Shown here piece after piece: positions 2,258 to 21,208 of a DNA stretch of 22,375 nt; position 1 is the stretch's first letter, and each line of letters starts with the position of its first letter. The stretch is from Utricularia gibba (Eukaryota; Streptophyta; Magnoliopsida; Lamiales; Lentibulariaceae): positions 1 through 22,375 of the forward strand of contig NEEC01000235.1 of assembly GCA_002189035.1 (NCBI GenBank), written 5' to 3'. The notes below the pieces were generated by a model. That model made no database searches, had not been told where the DNA came from, and saw only the letters and a list, made by a program, of their open reading frames with translations. A program made the position numbers and the translations under genes.

Positions 2258-3313
2258 GAGGTGCTTCGCGGACCAGGATGTGCGACGTAGTCATTTCATT
2301 GCGCATCATCATTCGGGGTGCATCCTAAAAATCACACGTGCACGGGATTCATTAAAAATAAATATTTACGCATATCCAGAGTGTATAACAGTGTTGGGAT
2401 AAGTGATGCCACGAAATTCATGATGTAGCATGTGACTTTTTTCCAACTTGATCGCATAGTAGATGAATTCTGACACCATATGTTGATGCATTTAGTTGCT
2501 ATGATACTTCTGATTCTTGATGCACCATTCCGTATACCATGTCTCTAGTGGCTATTTGATTCTTTTGCCTTGTATGTTGTTCGCATCAATTTCGAGAACA
2601 TGAAGCACATTATTAAATGCAGTCACCACGGAATGCCACGTGAGACACCTTTCGTTGTGGCCTTTTTTAATATGTCCACAGTTATCGGACAAACGTAACT
2701 CAAATTATAATACTTGGAGCTCGAAAAGGGCTTCCCAACAGTGTGCTATGAAGAGCAAGGATCTGCATGTTATGCAAGAGGTGCTTCGCGGACCAGGATG
2801 TGCGACGTAGTCATTTCATTGCGCATCACCATTCGGGATGCAGCCGAAAAAATCACACGTGCACGGATTTGTTAAAAATAAATATTTACGCATATCCTGA
2901 GTATATAACAGTGTTGGGATAAGTGATGCCACGAAATTCATGATGTAACATGTGACTTTTTTCCATCTTGATCGCATATCCGATGAAGTTTGACACCATA
3001 TGTTTTGGCTGTTGATTGATTCAATTAGTTGCTATGATACTTCTGATTCTTGATGCACCATTCCCATACACCATGTCTCTAGTGGCTATTTGATTCTTTT
3101 GCCGTGTATCCCATTTGCATCAATGTCGAGAACGAGAAGCACATTCTTAGACGCAGCCACCAAGAAAGGACACCTAAGACACTTTTCGTTGTGGCTTGTT
3201 TTTAATATGTCCACAGTTATCGGACAAACGTAACTCCAAATTATAATACTTGGAGCTCGAAAAGGGCTTCCCAACAGTGTGCTATGAAGAGCAAGGATCT
3301 GCATGTTATGCAA
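2258..3313. repeat. Dimeric HOR unit (B+A), 1,056 bp, variant
   Basis: B is 2258-2777 (520 bp). It lacks one C in the CCCGTATACC motif (near 2531), one C in GGCCC before the T run (near 2662), and one C in CTCCAAAT (near 2701). A is 2778-3313 (536 bp); it begins with the B-type GGTGCTTCGC, has one extra A near 2850 (GCCGAAAAAATC), one C fewer (GCACGGATTTG) and the intermediate GAGTATATAAC. Confidence 0.92.
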
Positions 3314-3830
3314 GAGGTGCTTCGCGGACCAGGATGTGCGACGTAGTCATTTCATTGCGCATCATCATTCGGGGTGCATCCTAAAAATCACACGTGCACG
3401 GGATTCATTAAAAATAAATATTTACGCATATCCAGAGTGTATAACAGTGTTGGGATAAGTGATGCCACGAAATTCATGATGTAGCATGTGACTTTTTTCC
3501 ATCTTGATCGCATAGTAGATGAATTTGACACCATATGTTGATTGCATTTAGTTGCTATGATACTTCTGATTCTTGATGCACCATTCCCATATACCATGTC
3601 TCTAGTGGCTATTTGATTCTTTTGCCTTGTATGTTGTTCGCATCAATTTCGAGAACAGAAGCACATTCTTAACGCAGCACCAAGGAATGCCACGTAGACA
3701 CTTTCGTTGTGGCTTTTTTTAATATGTCCACAGTTATCGGACAAACGTAACTCCAAATTATAATACTTGGAGCTCGAAAAGGGCTTCCCAACAGTGTGCT
3801 ATGAAGAGCAAGGATCTGCATGTTATGCAA
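3314..3830. repeat. Irregular mosaic monomer (517 bp)
   Basis: The first part is B-like (GGGGTGCATCC, CCAGAGTGTATAAC, GTAGCATGTG). It then mixes forms: A-like CCATCTTG, GATGAATTTGACACC, CCCATATACC (half A, half B), and B-like GTATGTTGTTCGC. Variable segment 2 reads GAACAGAAGC, CTTAACGCAGCACCAAGG and CCACGTAGACAC, lacking single bases where A and B disagree. With the next monomer it breaks the A/B alternation. Confidence 0.88.
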
Positions 3831-4350
3831 GAGGTGCTTCGCGGACCAGGATGTGCGACGTAGTCATTTCATTGCGCATCATCATTCGGGGTGCATCCTA
3901 AAAATCACACGTGCACGGGATTCATTAAAAATAAATATTTACGCATATCCAGAGTGTATAACAGTGTTGGGATAAGTGATGCCACGAAATTCATGATGTA
4001 GCATGTGACTTTTTTCCAACTTGATCGCATATAGATGAATTTGACACCATATGGCTGTTGATTGATTCATTAGTTGCTATGATACTTCTGATTCTTGATG
4101 CACCATTCCCATATACCATGTCTCTAGTGGCTATTTGATTCTTTTGCCTGTATGTTTGCATCAATTTCGAGAACGAGAAGCACATTCTTAACGCAGCACC
4201 AAGAAAGGACACGTAAGACACTTTTCGTTGTGGCTTTTTTAATATGTCCACAGTTATCGGACAAACGTAACTCCAAATTATAATACTTGGAGCTCGAAAA
4301 GGGCTTCCCAACAGTGTGCTATGAAGAGCAAGGATCTGCATGTTATGCAA
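3831..4350. repeat. Irregular mosaic monomer (520 bp)
   Basis: B-like up to CCAACTTGATCG, then mixed: GCATATAGATGAATTTGACA, CATATGGCTGTTGATTGATT (an A-like insert missing TTTT), CCCATATACC, and GCCTGTATGTTTGC, a reduced blend of A GCCGTGTAT and B GCCTTGTAT. The end is mostly A-like (GAACGAGAAGC, CCAAGAAAGGACACGTAAGA). It is the extra monomer of a three-monomer stretch where two or four would be expected. Confidence 0.88.
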
Positions 4351-4886
4351 GAGGTGCTTCGCGGACCAGGATGTGCGACGTAGTCATTTCATTGCGCATC
4401 ATCATTCGGGGTGCATCCTAAAAATCACACGTGCACGGGATTCATTAAAAATAAATATTTACGCATATCCAGAGTGTATAACAGTGTTGGGATAAGTGAT
4501 GCCACGAAATTCATGATGTAACATGTGACTTTTTTCCATCTTGATCGCATATCCGATGAAGTTTGACACCATATGTTTTGGCTGTTGATTGATTCAATTA
4601 GTTGCTATGATACTTCTGATTCTTGATGCACCATTCCCATACACCATGTCTCTAGTGGCTATTTGATTCTTTTGCCGTGTATCCCATTTGCATCAATGTC
4701 GAGAACGAGAAGCACATTCTTAGACGCAGCCACCAAGAAAGGACACCTAAGACACTTTTCGTTGTGGCTTGTTTTTAATATGTCCACAGTTATCGGACAA
4801 ACGTAACTCCAAATTATAATACTTGGAGCTCGAAAAGGGCTTCCCAACAGTGTGCTATGAAGAGCAAGGATCTGCATGTTATGCAA
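4351..4886. repeat. B-to-A chimeric monomer (536 bp)
   Basis: The 5' part carries every B diagnostic (GGTGCTTCGC, CATCATCATTCGGGG, GGGATTCATT, CCAGAGTGTATAAC); the rest carries every A diagnostic from GTAACATGTG onward, including the 13-bp-longer segment. The last B-specific base is at 4479 and the first A-specific base at 4521, so the switch lies in 4480-4520. The junction is clean, without the scattered deletions of the two monomers before it. Confidence 0.9.
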
Positions 4887-5944
4887 GAGGTGCTTCGCGG
4901 ACCAGGATGTGCGACGTAGTCATTTCATTGCGCATCATCATTCGGGGTGCATCCTAAAAATCACACGTGCACGGGATTCATTAAAAATAAATATTTACGC
5001 ATATCCAGAGTGTATAACAGTGTTGGGATAAGTGATGCCACGAAATTCATGATGTAGCATGTGACTTTTTTCCAACTTGATCGCATAGTAGATGAATTCT
5101 GACACCATATGTTGATGCATTTAGTTGCTATGATACTTCTGATTCTTGATGCACCATTCCCGTATACCATGTCTCTAGTGGCTATTTGATTCTTTTGCCT
5201 TGTATGTTGTTCGCATCAATTTCGAGAACATGAAGCACATTATTAAATGCAGTCACCACGGAATGCCACGTGAGACACCTTTCGTTGTGGCCCTTTTTTA
5301 ATATGTCCACAGTTATCGGACAAACGTAACTCCAAATTATAATACTTGGAGCTCGAAAAGGGCTTCCCAACAGTGTGCTATGAAGAGCAAGGATCTGCAT
5401 GTTATGCAAGAGGTGTTTCGCGGACCAGGATGTGCGACGTAGTCATTTCATTGCGCATCATCATTCGGGATGCATCCGAAAAATCACACGTGCACGGATT
5501 TGTTAAAAATAAATATTTACGCATATCCTGAGTATACAACAGTGTTGGGATAAGTGATGCCACGAAATTCATGATGTAACATGTGACTTTTTTCCATCTT
5601 GATCGCATATCCGATGAAGTTTGACACCATATGTTTTGGCTGTTGATTGATTCAATTAGTTGCTATGATACTTCTGATTCTTGATGCACCATTCCCATAC
5701 ACCATGTCTCTAGTGGCTATTTGATTCTTTTGCCGTGTATCCCATTTGCATCAATGTCGAGAACGAGAAGCACATTCTTAGACGCAGCCACCAAGAAAGG
5801 ACACCTAAGACACTTTTCGTTGTGGCTTGTTTTTAATATGTCCACAGTTATCGGACAAACGTAACTCCAAATTATAATACTTGGAGCTCGAAAAGGGCTT
5901 CCCAACAGTGTGCTATGAAGAGCAAGGATCTGCATGTTATGCAA
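4887..5944. repeat. Dimeric HOR unit (B+A), 1,058 bp
   Basis: B at 4887-5409 looks canonical. A at 5410-5944 is 535 bp; near its start it has B-type bases (CATCATCATTC and TGCATCC) and one C fewer (GCACGGATTTG), then becomes canonical A. Confidence 0.93.
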
Positions 5945-7003
5945 GAGGTGCTTCGCGGACCAGGATGTGCGACGTAGTCATTTCATTGCGCATCATCATT
6001 CGGGGTGCATCCTAAAAATCACACGTGCACGGGATTCATTAAAAATAAATATTTACGCATATCCAGAGTGTATAACAGTGTTGGGATAAGTGATGCCACG
6101 AAATTCATGATGTAGCATGTGACTTTTTTCCAACTTGATCGCATAGTAGATGAATTCTGACACCATATGTTGATGCATTTAGTTGCTATGATACTTCTGA
6201 TTCTTGATGCACCATTCCCGTATACCATGTCTCTAGTGGCTATTTGATTCTTTTGCCTTGTATGTTGTTCGCATCAATTTCGAGAACATGAAGCACATTA
6301 TTAAATGCAGTCACCACGGAATGCCACGTGAGACACCTTTCGTTGTGGCCCTTTTTTAATATGTCCACAGTTATCGGACAAACGTAACTCCAAATTATAA
6401 TACTTGGAGCTCGAAAAGGGCTTCCCAACAGTGTGCTATGAAGAGCAAGGATCTGCATGTTATGCAAGAGGTGTTTCGCGGACCAGGATGTGCGACGTAG
6501 TCATTTCATTGCGCATCACCATTCGGGATGCAGCCGAAAAATCACACGTGCACCGGATTTGTTAAAAATAAATATTTACGCATATCCTGAGTATACAACA
6601 GTGTTGGGATAAGTGATGCCACGAAATTCATGATGTAACATGTGACTTTTTTCCATCTTGATCGCATATCCGATGAAGTTTGACACCATATGTTTTGGCT
6701 GTTGATTGATTCAATTAGTTGCTATGATACTTCTGATTCTTGATGCACCATTCCCATACACCATGTCTCTAGTGGCTATTTGATTCTTTTGCCGTGTATC
6801 CCATTTGCATCAATGTCGAGAACGAGAAGCACATTCTTAGACGCAGCCACCAAGAAAGGACACCTAAGACACTTTTCGTTGTGGCTTGTTTTTAATATGT
6901 CCACAGTTATCGGACAAACGTAACTCCAAATTATAATACTTGGAGCTCGAAAAGGGCTTCCCAACAGTGTGCTATGAAGAGCAAGGATCTGCATGTTATG
7001 CAA
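5945..7003. repeat. Dimeric HOR unit (B+A), 1,059 bp
   Basis: B 5945-6467 and A 6468-7003, both with all canonical diagnostics and standard lengths. Confidence 0.95.
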
Positions 7004-7517
7004 GAGGTGCTTCGCGGACCAGGATGTGCGACGTAGTCATTTCATTGCGCATCATCATTCGGGGTGCATCCTAAAAATCACACGTGCACGGGATTCATTA
7101 AAAATAAATATTTACGCATATCCAGAGTGTATAACAGTGTTGGGATAAGTGATGCCACGAAATTCATGATGTAGCATGTGACTTTTTTCCAACTTGATCG
7201 CATAGTAGATGAATTCTGACACCATATGTTGATGCATTTAGTTGCTATGATACTTCTGATTCTTGATGCACCATTCCCGTATACCATGTCTCTAGTGGCT
7301 ATTTGATTCTTTTGCCTTGTATGTTTCGCATCAATTTCGAGAACATGAAGCACATTATTAAATGCAGTCACCACGGAATGCTACGTGAGACGTTGTGGCC
7401 CTTTTTTAATATGTCCACAGTTATCGGACAAACGTAACTCCAAATTATAATACTTGGAGCTCGAAAAGGGCTTCCCAACAGTGTGCTATGAAGAGCAAGG
7501 ATCTGCATGTTATGCAA
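7004..7517. repeat. Shortened B monomer (514 bp)
   Basis: B diagnostics throughout. It is nine bases short: two in TATGTTTCGC (canonical TATGTTGTTCGC) and seven at 7390 (GAGACGTTGTGG where ACCTTTC is missing). There is also a C-to-T change in GCTACGTGAGA, which removes the second CACGTG. Confidence 0.92.
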
Positions 7518-8031
7518 GAGGTGCTTCGCGGACCAGGATGTGCGACGTAGTCATTTCATTGCGCATCATCATTCGGGGTGCATCCTAAAAATCACACGTG
7601 CACGGGATTCATTAAAAATAAATATTTACGCATATCCAGAGTGTATAACAGTGTTGGGATAAGTGATGCCACGAAATTCATGATGTAACATGTGACTTTT
7701 TTCCATCTTGATCGCATATAGATGAATTTGACACCATATGTTGATGATTTTAGTTGCTATGATACTTCTGATTCTTGATGCACCATTCCCATACCATGTC
7801 TCTAGTGGCTATTTGATTCTTTTGCCTTGTAGTTGCATCAATTTCGAGAACGAGAAGCACATTATTAAATGCAGCCACCAAGAAAGGACACCTAAGACAC
7901 TTTTCGTTGTGGCTTGTTTTTAATATGTCCACAGTTATCGGACAAACGTAACTCCAAATTATAATACTTGGAGCTCGAAAAGGGCTTCCCAACAGTGTGC
8001 TATGAAGAGCAAGGATCTGCATGTTATGCAA
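7518..8031. repeat. Irregular mosaic monomer (514 bp) in an A position
   Basis: The 5' part is B-like to GAGTGTATAAC. It then becomes A-like (GTAACATGTG, CCATCTTG), with GCATATAGATGAATTTGACA, TGTTGATGATTTTAG, CCCATACC and CCTTGTAGTTGCATC as reduced blends. The end is A-like (CACCAAGAAAGGACACCTAA, GGCTTGTTTTT). Alternation B-mosaic-B-A is kept, so it replaces an A monomer. Confidence 0.88.
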
Positions 8032-8547
8032 GAGGTGTTTCGCGGACCAGGATGTGCGACGTAGTCATTTCATTGCGCATCATCATTCGGGGTGCATCCT
8101 AAAAATCACACGTGCACGGGATTCATTAAAAATAAATATTTACGCATATCCAGAGTGTATAACAGTGTTGGGATAAGTGATGCCACGAAATTCATGATGT
8201 AGCATGTGACTTTTTTCCAACTTGATCGCATAGTAGATGAATTCTGACACCATATGTTGATGCATTTAGTTGCTATGATACTTCTGATTCTTGATGCACC
8301 ATTCCCATACCATGTCTCTAGTGGCTATTTGATTCTTTTGCCTTGTATGTTCGCATCAATTTCGAGAACATGAAGCACATTATTAAATGCAGTCACCACG
8401 GAATGCCACGTGAGACACCTTTCGTTGTGGCTTTTTTAATATGTCCACAGTTATCGGACAAACGTAACTCCAAATTATAATACTTGGAGCTCGAAAAGGG
8501 CTTCCCAACAGTGTGCTATGAAGAGCAAGGATCTGCATGTTATGCAA
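8032..8547. repeat. Shortened B monomer (516 bp) with A-type start
   Basis: It starts with A-type GGTGTTTCGC and is otherwise B, including GAATTC. Seven bases are missing: two in CCCATACC, three in TATGTTCGC, and two in GGCTTTTTTAAT. Confidence 0.9.
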
Positions 8548-12259: not shown

Positions 12260-13318
12260 GAGGTGCTTCGCGGACCAGGATGTGCGACGTAGTCATTTCA
12301 TTGCGCATCATCATTCGGGGTGCATCCTAAAAATCACACGTGCACGGGATTCATTAAAAATAAATATTTACGCATATCCAGAGTGTATAACAGTGTTGGG
12401 ATAAGTGATGCCACGAAATTCATGATGTAGCATGTGACTTTTTTCCAACTTGATCGCATAGTAGATGAATTCTGACACCATATGTTGATGCATTTAGTTG
12501 CTATGATACTTCTGATTCTTGATGCACCATTCCCGTATACCATGTCTCTAGTGGCTATTTGATTCTTTTGCCTTGTATGTTGTTCGCATCAATTTCGAGA
12601 ACATGAAGCACATTATTAAATGCAGTCACCACGGAATGCCACGTGAGACACCTTTCGTTGTGGCCCTTTTTTAATATGTCCACAGTTATCGGACAAACGT
12701 AACTCCAAATTATAATACTTGGAGCTCGAAAAGGGCTTCCCAACAGTGTGCTATGAAGAGCAAGGATCTGCATGTTATGCAAGAGGTGTTTCGCGGACCA
12801 GGATGTGCGACGTAGTCATTTCATTGCGCATCACCATTCGGGATGCAGCCGAAAAATCACACGTGCACCGGATTTGTTAAAAATAAATATTTACGCATAT
12901 CCTGAGTATACAACAGTGTTGGGATAAGTGATGCCACGAAATTCATGATGTAACATGTGACTTTTTTCCATCTTGATCGCATATCCGATGAAGTTTGACA
13001 CCATATGTTTTGGCTGTTGATTGATTCAATTAGTTGCTATGATACTTCTGATTCTTGATGCACCATTCCCATACACCATGTCTCTAGTGGCTATTTGATT
13101 CTTTTGCCGTGTATCCCATTTGCATCAATGTCGAGAACGAGAAGCACATTCTTAGACGCAGCCACCAAGAAAGGACACCTAAGACACTTTTCGTTGTGGC
13201 TTGTTTTTAATATGTCCACAGTTATCGGACAAACGTAACTCCAAATTATAATACTTGGAGCTCGAAAAGGGCTTCCCAACAGTGTGCTATGAAGAGCAAG
13301 GATCTGCATGTTATGCAA
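12260..13318. repeat. HOR unit 4 of the regular run (1,059 bp)
   Basis: B 12260-12782 and A 12783-13318, canonical. Confidence 0.95.
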
Positions 13319-14377
13319 GAGGTGCTTCGCGGACCAGGATGTGCGACGTAGTCATTTCATTGCGCATCATCATTCGGGGTGCATCCTAAAAATCACACGT
13401 GCACGGGATTCATTAAAAATAAATATTTACGCATATCCAGAGTGTATAACAGTGTTGGGATAAGTGATGCCACGAAATTCATGATGTAGCATGTGACTTT
13501 TTTCCAACTTGATCGCATAGTAGATGAATTCTGACACCATATGTTGATGCATTTAGTTGCTATGATACTTCTGATTCTTGATGCACCATTCCCGTATACC
13601 ATGTCTCTAGTGGCTATTTGATTCTTTTGCCTTGTATGTTGTTCGCATCAATTTCGAGAACATGAAGCACATTATTAAATGCAGTCACCACGGAATGCCA
13701 CGTGAGACACCTTTCGTTGTGGCCCTTTTTTAATATGTCCACAGTTATCGGACAAACGTAACTCCAAATTATAATACTTGGAGCTCGAAAAGGGCTTCCC
13801 AACAGTGTGCTATGAAGAGCAAGGATCTGCATGTTATGCAAGAGGTGTTTCGCGGACCAGGATGTGCGACGTAGTCATTTCATTGCGCATCACCATTCGG
13901 GATGCAGCCGAAAAATCACACGTGCACCGGATTTGTTAAAAATAAATATTTACGCATATCCTGAGTATACAACAGTGTTGGGATAAGTGATGCCACGAAA
14001 TTCATGATGTAACATGTGACTTTTTTCCATCTTGATCGCATATCCGATGAAGTTTGACACCATATGTTTTGGCTGTTGATTGATTCAATTAGTTGCTATG
14101 ATACTTCTGATTCTTGATGCACCATTCCCATACACCATGTCTCTAGTGGCTATTTGATTCTTTTGCCGTGTATCCCATTTGCATCAATGTCGAGAACGAG
14201 AAGCACATTCTTAGACGCAGCCACCAAGAAAGGACACCTAAGACACTTTTCGTTGTGGCTTGTTTTTAATATGTCCACAGTTATCGGACAAACGTAACTC
14301 CAAATTATAATACTTGGAGCTCGAAAAGGGCTTCCCAACAGTGTGCTATGAAGAGCAAGGATCTGCATGTTATGCAA
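13319..14377. repeat. HOR unit 5 of the regular run (1,059 bp)
   Basis: B 13319-13841 and A 13842-14377, canonical. Confidence 0.95.
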
Positions 14378-18613: not shown

Positions 18614-19671
18614 GAGGTGCTTCGCGGACCAGGATGTGCGACGTAGTCATTTCATTGCGCATCATCATTCGGGGTGCATCCTAAAAATCACACGTGCACG
18701 GGATTCATTAAAAATAAATATTTACGCATATCCAGAGTGTATAACAGTGTTGGGATAAGTGATGCCACGAAATTCATGATGTAGCATGTGACTTTTTTCC
18801 AACTTGATCGCATAGTAGATGAATTCTGACACCATATGTTGATGCATTTAGTTGCTATGATACTTCTGATTCTTGATGCACCATTCCCGTATACCATGTC
18901 TCTAGTGGCTATTTGATTCTTTTGCCTTGTATGTTGTTCGCATCAATTTCGAGAACATGAAGCACATTATTAAATGCAGTCACCACGGAATGCCACGTGA
19001 GACACCTTTCGTTGTGGCCCTTTTTTAATATGTCCACAGTTATCGGACAAACGTAACTCCAAATTATAATACTTGGAGCTCGAAAGGGCTTCCCAACAGT
19101 GTGCTATGAAGAGCAAGGATCTGCATGTTATGCAAGAGGTGTTTCGCGGACCAGGATGTGCGACGTAGTCATTTCATTGCGCATCACCATTCGGGATGCA
19201 GCCGAAAAATCACACGTGCACCGGATTTGTTAAAAATAAATATTTACGCATATCCTGAGTATACAACAGTGTTGGGATAAGTGATGCCACGAAATTCATG
19301 ATGTAACATGTGACTTTTTTCCATCTTGATCGCATATCCGATGAAGTTTGACACCATATGTTTTGGCTGTTGATTGATTCAATTAGTTGCTATGATACTT
19401 CTGATTCTTGATGCACCATTCCCATACACCATGTCTCTAGTGGCTATTTGATTCTTTTGCCGTGTATCCCATTTGCATCAATGTCGAGAACGAGAAGCAC
19501 ATTCTTAGACGCAGCCACCAAGAAAGGACACCTAAGACACTTTTCGTTGTGGCTTGTTTTTAATATGTCCACAGTTATCGGACAAACGTAACTCCAAATT
19601 ATAATACTTGGAGCTCGAAAAGGGCTTCCCAACAGTGTGCTATGAAGAGCAAGGATCTGCATGTTATGCAA
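18614..19671. repeat. HOR unit 10 of the regular run (1,058 bp)
   Basis: B 18614-19135 is 522 bp because one A is missing from the run after GAGCTCG (near 19085). A 19136-19671 is canonical. Irregular monomers begin immediately after it. Confidence 0.95.
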
Positions 19672-20176
19672 GAGGTGCTTCGCGGACCAGGATGTGCGAC
19701 GTAGTCATTTCATTGCGCATCATCATTCGGGTGCATCCTAAAAATCACACGTGCACGGGATTCATTAAAAATAAATATTTACGCATATCCAGAGTGTATA
19801 ACAGTGTTGGGATAAGTGATGCCACGAAATTCATGATGTAGCATGTGACTTTTTTTCATCGCATAGATGAATTTGACACCATATGTTATTGCATTAGTTG
19901 CTATGATACTTCTGATTCTTGATGCACCATTCCCGTATACCATGTCTCTAGTGGCTATTTGATTCTTTTGCCGTGTATGTTTTCGCATCAATTCGAGAAC
20001 AGAAGCACATTATTAAATGCAGCCACCACGAAAGGCACGTGAGACACTTTTCGTTGTGGCTTTTTTAATATGTCCACAGTTATCGGACAAACGTAACTCC
20101 AAATTATAATACTTGGAGCTCGAAAAGGGCTTCCCAACAGTGTGCTATGAAGAGCAAGGATCTGCATGTTATGCAA
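19672..20176. repeat. Irregular mosaic monomer (505 bp, shortest in the window)
   Basis: B-like 5' part with one G fewer (TTCGGGTGCATCC). Then GTGACTTTTTTTCATCGCAT, missing the CCAACTTGAT portion, GATGAATTTGACACC, TGTTATTGCATTAG, CCGTGTATGTTTTCGC, CAATTCGAGAACAGAAGC and GCCACCACGAAAGGCACGTG. These blend A and B with bases missing at disagreement sites. Confidence 0.88.
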
Positions 20177-20685
20177 GAGGTGCTTCGCGGACCAGGATGT
20201 GCGACGTAGTCATTTCATTGCGCATCATCATTCGGGGTGCATCCTAAAAATCACACGTGCACGGGATTCATTAAAAATAAATATTTACGCATATCCAGAG
20301 TGTATAACAGTGTTGGGATAAGTGATGCCACGAAATTCATGATGTAGCATGTGACTTTTTTCCAACTTGATCGCATATAGATGAATTTGACACCATATGT
20401 TTGATTGCATTTAGTTGCTATGATACTTCTGATTCTTGATGCACCATTCCCGTATACCATGTCTCTAGTGGCTATTTGATTCTTTTGCCTTGTATGTTTT
20501 GCATCAATTTCGAGAACATGAAGCACATTATTAGCACCACCACGAAACGTAGACACTTTTCGTTGTGGCTTTTTTAATATGTCCACAGTTATCGGACAAA
20601 CGTAACTCCAAATTATAATACTTGGAGCTCGAAAAGGGCTTCCCAACAGTGTGCTATGAAGAGCAAGGATCTGCATGTTATGCAA
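20177..20685. repeat. Irregular mosaic monomer (509 bp)
   Basis: B-like 5' half, then GCATATAGATGAATTTGACA, TGTTTGATTGCATTTAG, CCTTGTATGTTTTGCATC and a strongly reduced variable segment 2 (ATTATTAGCACCACCACG, AAACGTAGACACTTTTCG). The loss falls mainly where A and B differ. Confidence 0.88.
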
Positions 20686-21208
20686 GAGGTGCTTCGCGGA
20701 CCAGGATGTGCGACGTAGTCATTTCATTGCGCATCATCATTCGGGTGCATCCTAAAAATCACACGTGCACGGGATTCATTAAAAATAAATATTTACGCAT
20801 ATCCAGAGTGTATAACAGTGTTGGGATAAGTGATGCCACGAAATTCATGATGTAGCATGTGACTTTTTTCCAACTTGATCGCATATAGATGAATTCTGAC
20901 ACCATATGTTTTGCTGTTGATTGCATTAGTTGCTATGATACTTCTGATTCTTGATGCACCATTCCCGTATACCATGTCTCTAGTGGCTATTTGATTCTTT
21001 TGCCTTGTATGTTTTCGCATCAATTTCGAGAACATGAAGCACATTATTAACGCAGCCACCACGAAAGCACCTAGACACTTTTCGTTGTGGCTTTTTTTAA
21101 TATGTCCACAGTTATCGGACAAACGTAACTCCAAATTATAATACTTGGAGCTCGAAAAGGGCTTCCCAACAGTGTGCTATGAAGAGCAAGGATCTGCATG
21201 TTATGCAA
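20686..21208. repeat. Irregular mosaic monomer (523 bp)
   Basis: Its length equals that of B by coincidence. It has one G fewer at TTCGGGTGCATCC. It combines B-type GAATTC, without the AGTA form upstream (GCATATAGATG), with most of the A-type insert (TGTTTTGCTGTTGATTGCAT). Variable segment 2 is a blend (ATTATTAACGCAGCCACC, ACGAAAGCACCTAGACAC). Confidence 0.88.

Follow-up and report, generated by a model that had tools for sequence, protein, structure and literature searches.

Dimeric higher-order satellite arrays are of a generally known kind, and the clean part of the window considered here (an entire contig, C322, of 22,375 bases in a Utricularia gibba genome assembly totalling 100.09 Mb in 516 contigs) is like them in being an A-B dimer with a period of 1,059 bp. 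There are two described systems pertinent to the few units of the window that depart from that regularity. The CentromereArchitect account (PMC8336445) has hybrid monomers of alpha satellite, which consist of a prefix of one frequent monomer and a suffix of another at a divergence of no more than 1%. The PECAT paper (PMC10997618) describes how correcting noisy long reads mixes the alleles of different haplotypes. The two blurred monomers of prime interest here, M1 and M2, share with the alpha-satellite hybrids the presence of two parents' alleles within a single repeat unit, but they miss the 1% prefix-plus-suffix fit, they lose disputed bases and the mosaics of their kind have no second copy among 348 monomers. 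The likeness to the allele mixing in the PECAT paper is that reads of two similar sequences would have been merged, with both allele sets ending up in the corrected sequence; unlike in that case, the sources here are adjacent satellite monomers, apparently in opposite register, and many of the disputed positions have dropped out instead of being merely swapped.

The satellite fills the window with 42 complete monomers, mostly a 523-bp B alternating with a 536-bp A; no notable feature came to light in the clean part. Tandem Repeats Finder, whose maximum period of 500 is smaller than that of the array, detected no array in the window. A conserved stretch of 43 bases within the satellite recurs exactly, with 1,397 matches genome-wide including those of the window. 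According to PMC8333044, satellite repeats are absent from the putative centromeric regions of Utricularia gibba; given the 1,397 core copies, a satellite array may have been overlooked in that species. Plant-type telomere repeats give at least 266 forward and at least 404 reverse matches, and the places listed for them include the beginnings of contigs C1, C2 and C3.

Two monomers served as references, both on the forward strand:

12670 to 13205, forward strand: reference monomer A, 536 bp, with 10 letter-identical copies among the window's 42 complete monomers and 36 among the 348 monomers from 11 contigs

13206 to 13728, forward strand: reference monomer B, 523 bp, with 13 letter-identical copies in the window and 92 among the 348 monomers from 11 contigs

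These are equal at 479 of 538 aligned columns, and their differences cluster in 24 blocks. Beyond the window the sample comprised 20 stretches from ten other contigs, which were non-random picks from the best matches of three sequence searches and which bring the total genotyped to 348 monomers in 11 contigs. It covered 6,000 bases of C147, 7,364 of C503, 7,001 of C383 and 7,000 of C381, and stopped short of the contig end by 1,604 bases in C97, 2,148 in C79, 1,822 in C323 and 781 in C324; monomer counts took spacings of 440-570 bases alone. Seven contigs have A-B arrays. Of their 303 monomers, 139 are A and 133 are B; 25 are mosaic, and 6, which decompose poorly, are omitted from rate counts. 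Two of the poorly decomposed units, at L019 8137-8651 and L014 8754-9238 (contigs C324 and C79), have many substitutions and indels at conserved columns and are possibly insertions or foreign sequence. A third monomer type, C, of 536 bp, forms monomeric and not dimeric arrays in C147, C503, C383 and C381 (L003, L004, L005 and L006). It has B-like alleles in most blocks, a block 12 of A length that is one letter off A, and A alleles in blocks 22-23. Of the 139 A monomers in the seven contigs, 83 have an A-like first half (blocks 0-7) and 9 a B-like one, meaning at least 7 of the 8 blocks B, and in the other 47 it is mixed or gapped; B monomers show hardly any variation.

The units around the blurred pair are the following:

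2666 to 3200, forward strand: A-type monomer of 535 bp, flanking the blurred run on its left, with A alleles in blocks 8-23

3201 to 3717, forward strand: M1, blurred, 517 bp, with 9 of 24 divergent blocks non-parental and each of its 6 deleted shared columns within a divergent block

3718 to 4237, forward strand: M2, blurred, 520 bp, with 11 of 24 divergent blocks non-parental and each of its 9 deleted shared columns within a divergent block

4238 to 4773, forward strand: clean single-crossover B+A hybrid with 0 edits, the crossover lying 242 bases in, so that it is B to about 4480 and then A

4774 to 5296, forward strand: clean B monomer to the right of the run, with the same letters as the modal B

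A first-pass annotation of the window had singled out 3314-4350, which is M1 plus M2 in a different frame, and had quoted gapped forms from it. These are in the sequence as quoted, GAACAGAAG at 3653 and 19997, GCAGCACC at 3674 and 4193, and GCCTGTAT at 4146, while the intact A or B counterpart of each has 18-21 occurrences in the window; M1 and M2 as whole monomers are singletons, with one occurrence each. Its assertion that bases are missing where A and B disagree is likewise correct. Call a column shared if A and B each carry a base in it; there are 521 of these, 67 of them within divergent blocks. M1 has lost 6 shared columns and M2 has lost 9, and every one of the 15 is in a divergent block; for uniformly placed deletions the chance would be 0.129^15, or about 4e-14, a figure that ignores homopolymer bias and the non-independence of neighbouring losses. 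At the 908 conserved columns of the two monomers there are no deletions and no substitutions, and either 0 or 1 insertion according to the alignment tie-break. The further proposal that these monomers look like the common subsequence of A and B survives in part: the losses are at A/B-divergent columns, but a strict common subsequence of the whole monomer has to be rejected since unshared bases are present, with 26 bases of M1 unexplained by A and 7 by B, and 18 by each for M2. In the pair's 48 divergent blocks the allele is that of B in 26 and that of A in 3, the common subsequence in 8, shortened in 7 and mixed in 4. The first 8 blocks of both M1 and M2 carry B alleles throughout, so the blurring is limited to approximately the second half of each monomer. 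By edit distance over the whole monomer M2 is slightly nearest to C (28, with 30 to B and 34 to A), and type C was considered as a parent; the letters of M2's block 12, however, are those of A.

What a consensus of mixed reads would give was simulated with assumed values of 9% insertion, 4% deletion and 1% mismatch and with 24 reads. Reads of A and B were mixed and aligned to one read, and consensus was called by five methods with 10 replicates each, nothing being fitted to the mosaics. Unmixed controls had 1-4 non-parental blocks in 240 depending on the method, and 1 in 240 for insertion/deletion-only alignment combined with a linked majority path. With 50% A the same combination yielded a mean length of 521.9 and 83 of 240 blocks non-parental (31 with the common subsequence, 28 shortened, 24 mixed), for comparison with the mean of 518.5 and the 19 of 48 observed in M1 and M2. 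Single-substitution columns were gapped in 42-51 of 110 instances by strict-majority votes (43 when mismatches were aligned as mismatches) and in 20 of 110 by the linked majority path; the M1 and M2 count is 4 of 22. A graph path without gap nodes put gaps at just 5 of the 110 when given mixed reads. When mixtures were put to a maximum-likelihood consensus, the gap ranked first, or level with the best, in 1 of 57 block-and-parameter trials, each a single replicate with candidates no more than 2 deletions from a parent; otherwise parental, hybrid or joined alleles were picked. It follows from the maximum-likelihood result that the dropping of disputed bases is a property of majority-type consensus and not of all methods. 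The first-pass annotation had it that a consensus of mixed reads which emits gaps at ambiguous columns would give ‘exactly this’, which is apt to the extent that most of the alleles are reproduced; the pattern did not arise under every consensus method. Since maximum-likelihood and gap-node-free graph methods give few gaps, an artefactual origin hinges on which consensus program was run.

Comparison allele by allele was made with 1,009 further simulated replicates. The commonest non-parental alleles in these are also the ones most often observed, TA at block 10, TT at 11, AT at 14, A at 18 and CT/CTT at 23. Over the 14 of 24 blocks used (blocks 0-7, 12 and 21 being left out), 100 of the 130 non-parental alleles observed rank among the simulated top three for their block, against 52.7 expected under crossover with random deletion to the same length; with alternative gap placement the values are 99 observed and 54.9 expected, and the log2 likelihood ratios are 155.1 and 144.8. 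Single-column gaps predicted by both models account for 26 of the 130, and for the remaining, informative alleles the tally is 74 of 104 as compared with 26.7 expected. Prediction was weak at block 13 (3 of 11) and block 16 (7 of 21). The simulation is also somewhat lossy at conserved bases: the linked path at 50% A loses 29 of 4,540, which predicts about 6 losses in M1 and M2 where 0 of 908 are observed, and about 17 in the six strongly blurred mosaics of the window where 10 of 2,724 are observed, a prediction that depends on the assumed 24 reads and that greater depth would reduce.

Blurring is not confined to one place. The window has two other odd runs:

6891 to 8434, forward strand: second odd run (monomers at 6891, 7405 and 7919), register kept, the strongly blurred monomer being that at 7405

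19559 to 21095, forward strand: third odd run, comprising three blurred monomers, with the register kept

In all seven A-B contigs blurring is tied to A/B-divergent columns. The 25 mosaics are gapped at 37 of 275 single-substitution columns versus 58 of 11,350 conserved columns; for A monomers the counts are 86 of 1,529 versus 129 of 63,106, and for B monomers 12 of 1,463 versus 48 of 60,382. Departures are thus wholly confined to columns where the sources differ in M1 and M2 (15 of 15), with a strong excess there but incomplete confinement in the 25 mosaics at large. Twenty-two of the 25 are shorter than B. Of the 200 mosaic alleles in blocks 0-7, 176 are B, so that the A partner must have had a B-like first half; this is an extra assumption, and clean monomers of that description are few (9 of 139). 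The columns most often deleted in A monomers, 199, 164 and 173, are at blocks where A-type copies vary between the A and B alleles. Among the 45 type-C monomers, column 199, which is variable there, is gapped 11 times, and column 173, which is invariant there, 6 times, from which it follows that gaps at 173 are in part plain run shortening. At conserved columns the 297 well-decomposed A-B monomers have 235 deletions, 10 substitutions and 36 insertions. Mutation is expected to yield departures rich in substitutions, and this deletion-rich error pattern is unlike it.

The odd runs also have to do with register. Clean neighbours in the seven contigs are AB in 121 cases, BA in 123, AA in 1 and BB in none, and of the 14 interior runs of odd monomers 8 break the A/B register and 6 keep it, versus a break at 1 of 245 clean junctions. 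Poorly decomposed monomers are entered in this tally as ‘?’ inside runs; 13 of the 14 runs contain mosaics, and the remaining one, in C324, is a single poorly decomposed monomer with register kept. Breakage of about half of the runs is what would be expected if sequences were joined at random displacements of whole monomers. The M1-M2 run is one of those that break it, reading A, M1, M2, A: at M1 (3201) the left register predicts B and the right predicts A, and at M2 (3718) the left predicts A and the right B. The monomer at 4238-4773, where the right-hand register takes over, is the sole copy of its kind among the 348 and could be either a real hybrid or a switch point between the registers.

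Might a real event nonetheless underlie the run? The register does differ on the two sides of 3201-4237, the adjoining 4238-4773 is a perfect B+A hybrid, and the A monomers with a B-like first half suggest past exchange in the family. A real register break from unequal A/B exchange could therefore lie beneath M1 and M2, their letters having been blurred when the few reads carrying the break were corrected with reads in the regular register; this possibility, which is compatible with an artefactual origin of the letters, is less likely than not. Only 1 of the 9 register breaks is clean, however, when a well-covered real break should sometimes assemble cleanly, and joining out of register suffices for the same picture. 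It is another matter to regard M1 and M2 themselves as real recombinants of A, B or C with no blending by consensus. Alleles of both A and B are present, and among assignable blocks there are just 2 switches in M1 and 1 in M2, yet the best single-crossover fit of A, B and C needs 12 edits for M1 and 15 for M2, divergences of 2.3% and 2.9% that exceed the 1% of a hybrid satellite monomer. The other four strongly blurred mosaics of the window are at 2.5-4.0%, while four control monomers, 4238-4773 included, need 0-3 edits (0-0.6%). For two of the six strongly blurred mosaics the best fit is a B+C or C+A single crossover, but still with 2.9% and 2.7% edits. Exchange should moreover retain one parental letter instead of removing it, and the 25 mosaics have no identical copy among the 348 monomers, all of which makes unblended recombinants very unlikely.

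Ordinary homopolymer-length errors of noisy reads, with no mixing of A and B, have in their favor that many single-column losses are compatible with the shortening of a run in A or B, and that 6 of 45 type-C monomers are gapped at column 173 without there being a second letter at that position. But the 25 mosaics lose 33 of 4,650 bases at conserved homopolymer columns versus 37 of 275 at divergent single-substitution columns, M1 and M2 have no conserved-column deletions whatever, and losses such as GA/AT becoming A and TCC/GTA becoming TA are not run shortening; such errors are thus a highly improbable source for the whole. One can also envisage the gapped monomers as real, with A/B exchange giving heteroduplex from which mismatches were removed while the shared parts were mainly kept, at changes of register, though we would accord this scarcely any likelihood.

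Consensus or assembly merging, as the first-pass annotation proposed, draws support from the match to simulated alleles, the localization to divergent columns, the recurrence as singletons and the link to register breaks, and the mosaic monomers at 3201-4237 are very probably an assembly artefact from mixed A and B reads. In a near-uniform A-B dimer array noisy long reads could be piled together in opposite register, A over B, either during read correction or where two sequences were joined that lay an odd number of monomers out of step. Under a majority-type consensus both letters would then drop out where neither has enough support, or the consensus would hop between parents. Only at columns that distinguish A from B would this leave alleles of the shared-subsequence, shortened and hybrid kinds. 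The artefact status is something that we infer strongly, though short of proof, and we infer too the type of read, the program and the lack of gapped forms in single molecules.

The blurred monomers, then, are most likely not a real feature of the DNA. Draft long-read assemblies of satellite arrays can hold invented units that mimic hybrids or new subtypes. The signature, losses where two frequent monomers differ together with singletons and changes of register, lends itself to scoring from the sequence by itself and could serve to mask such units ahead of studies of satellite evolution.
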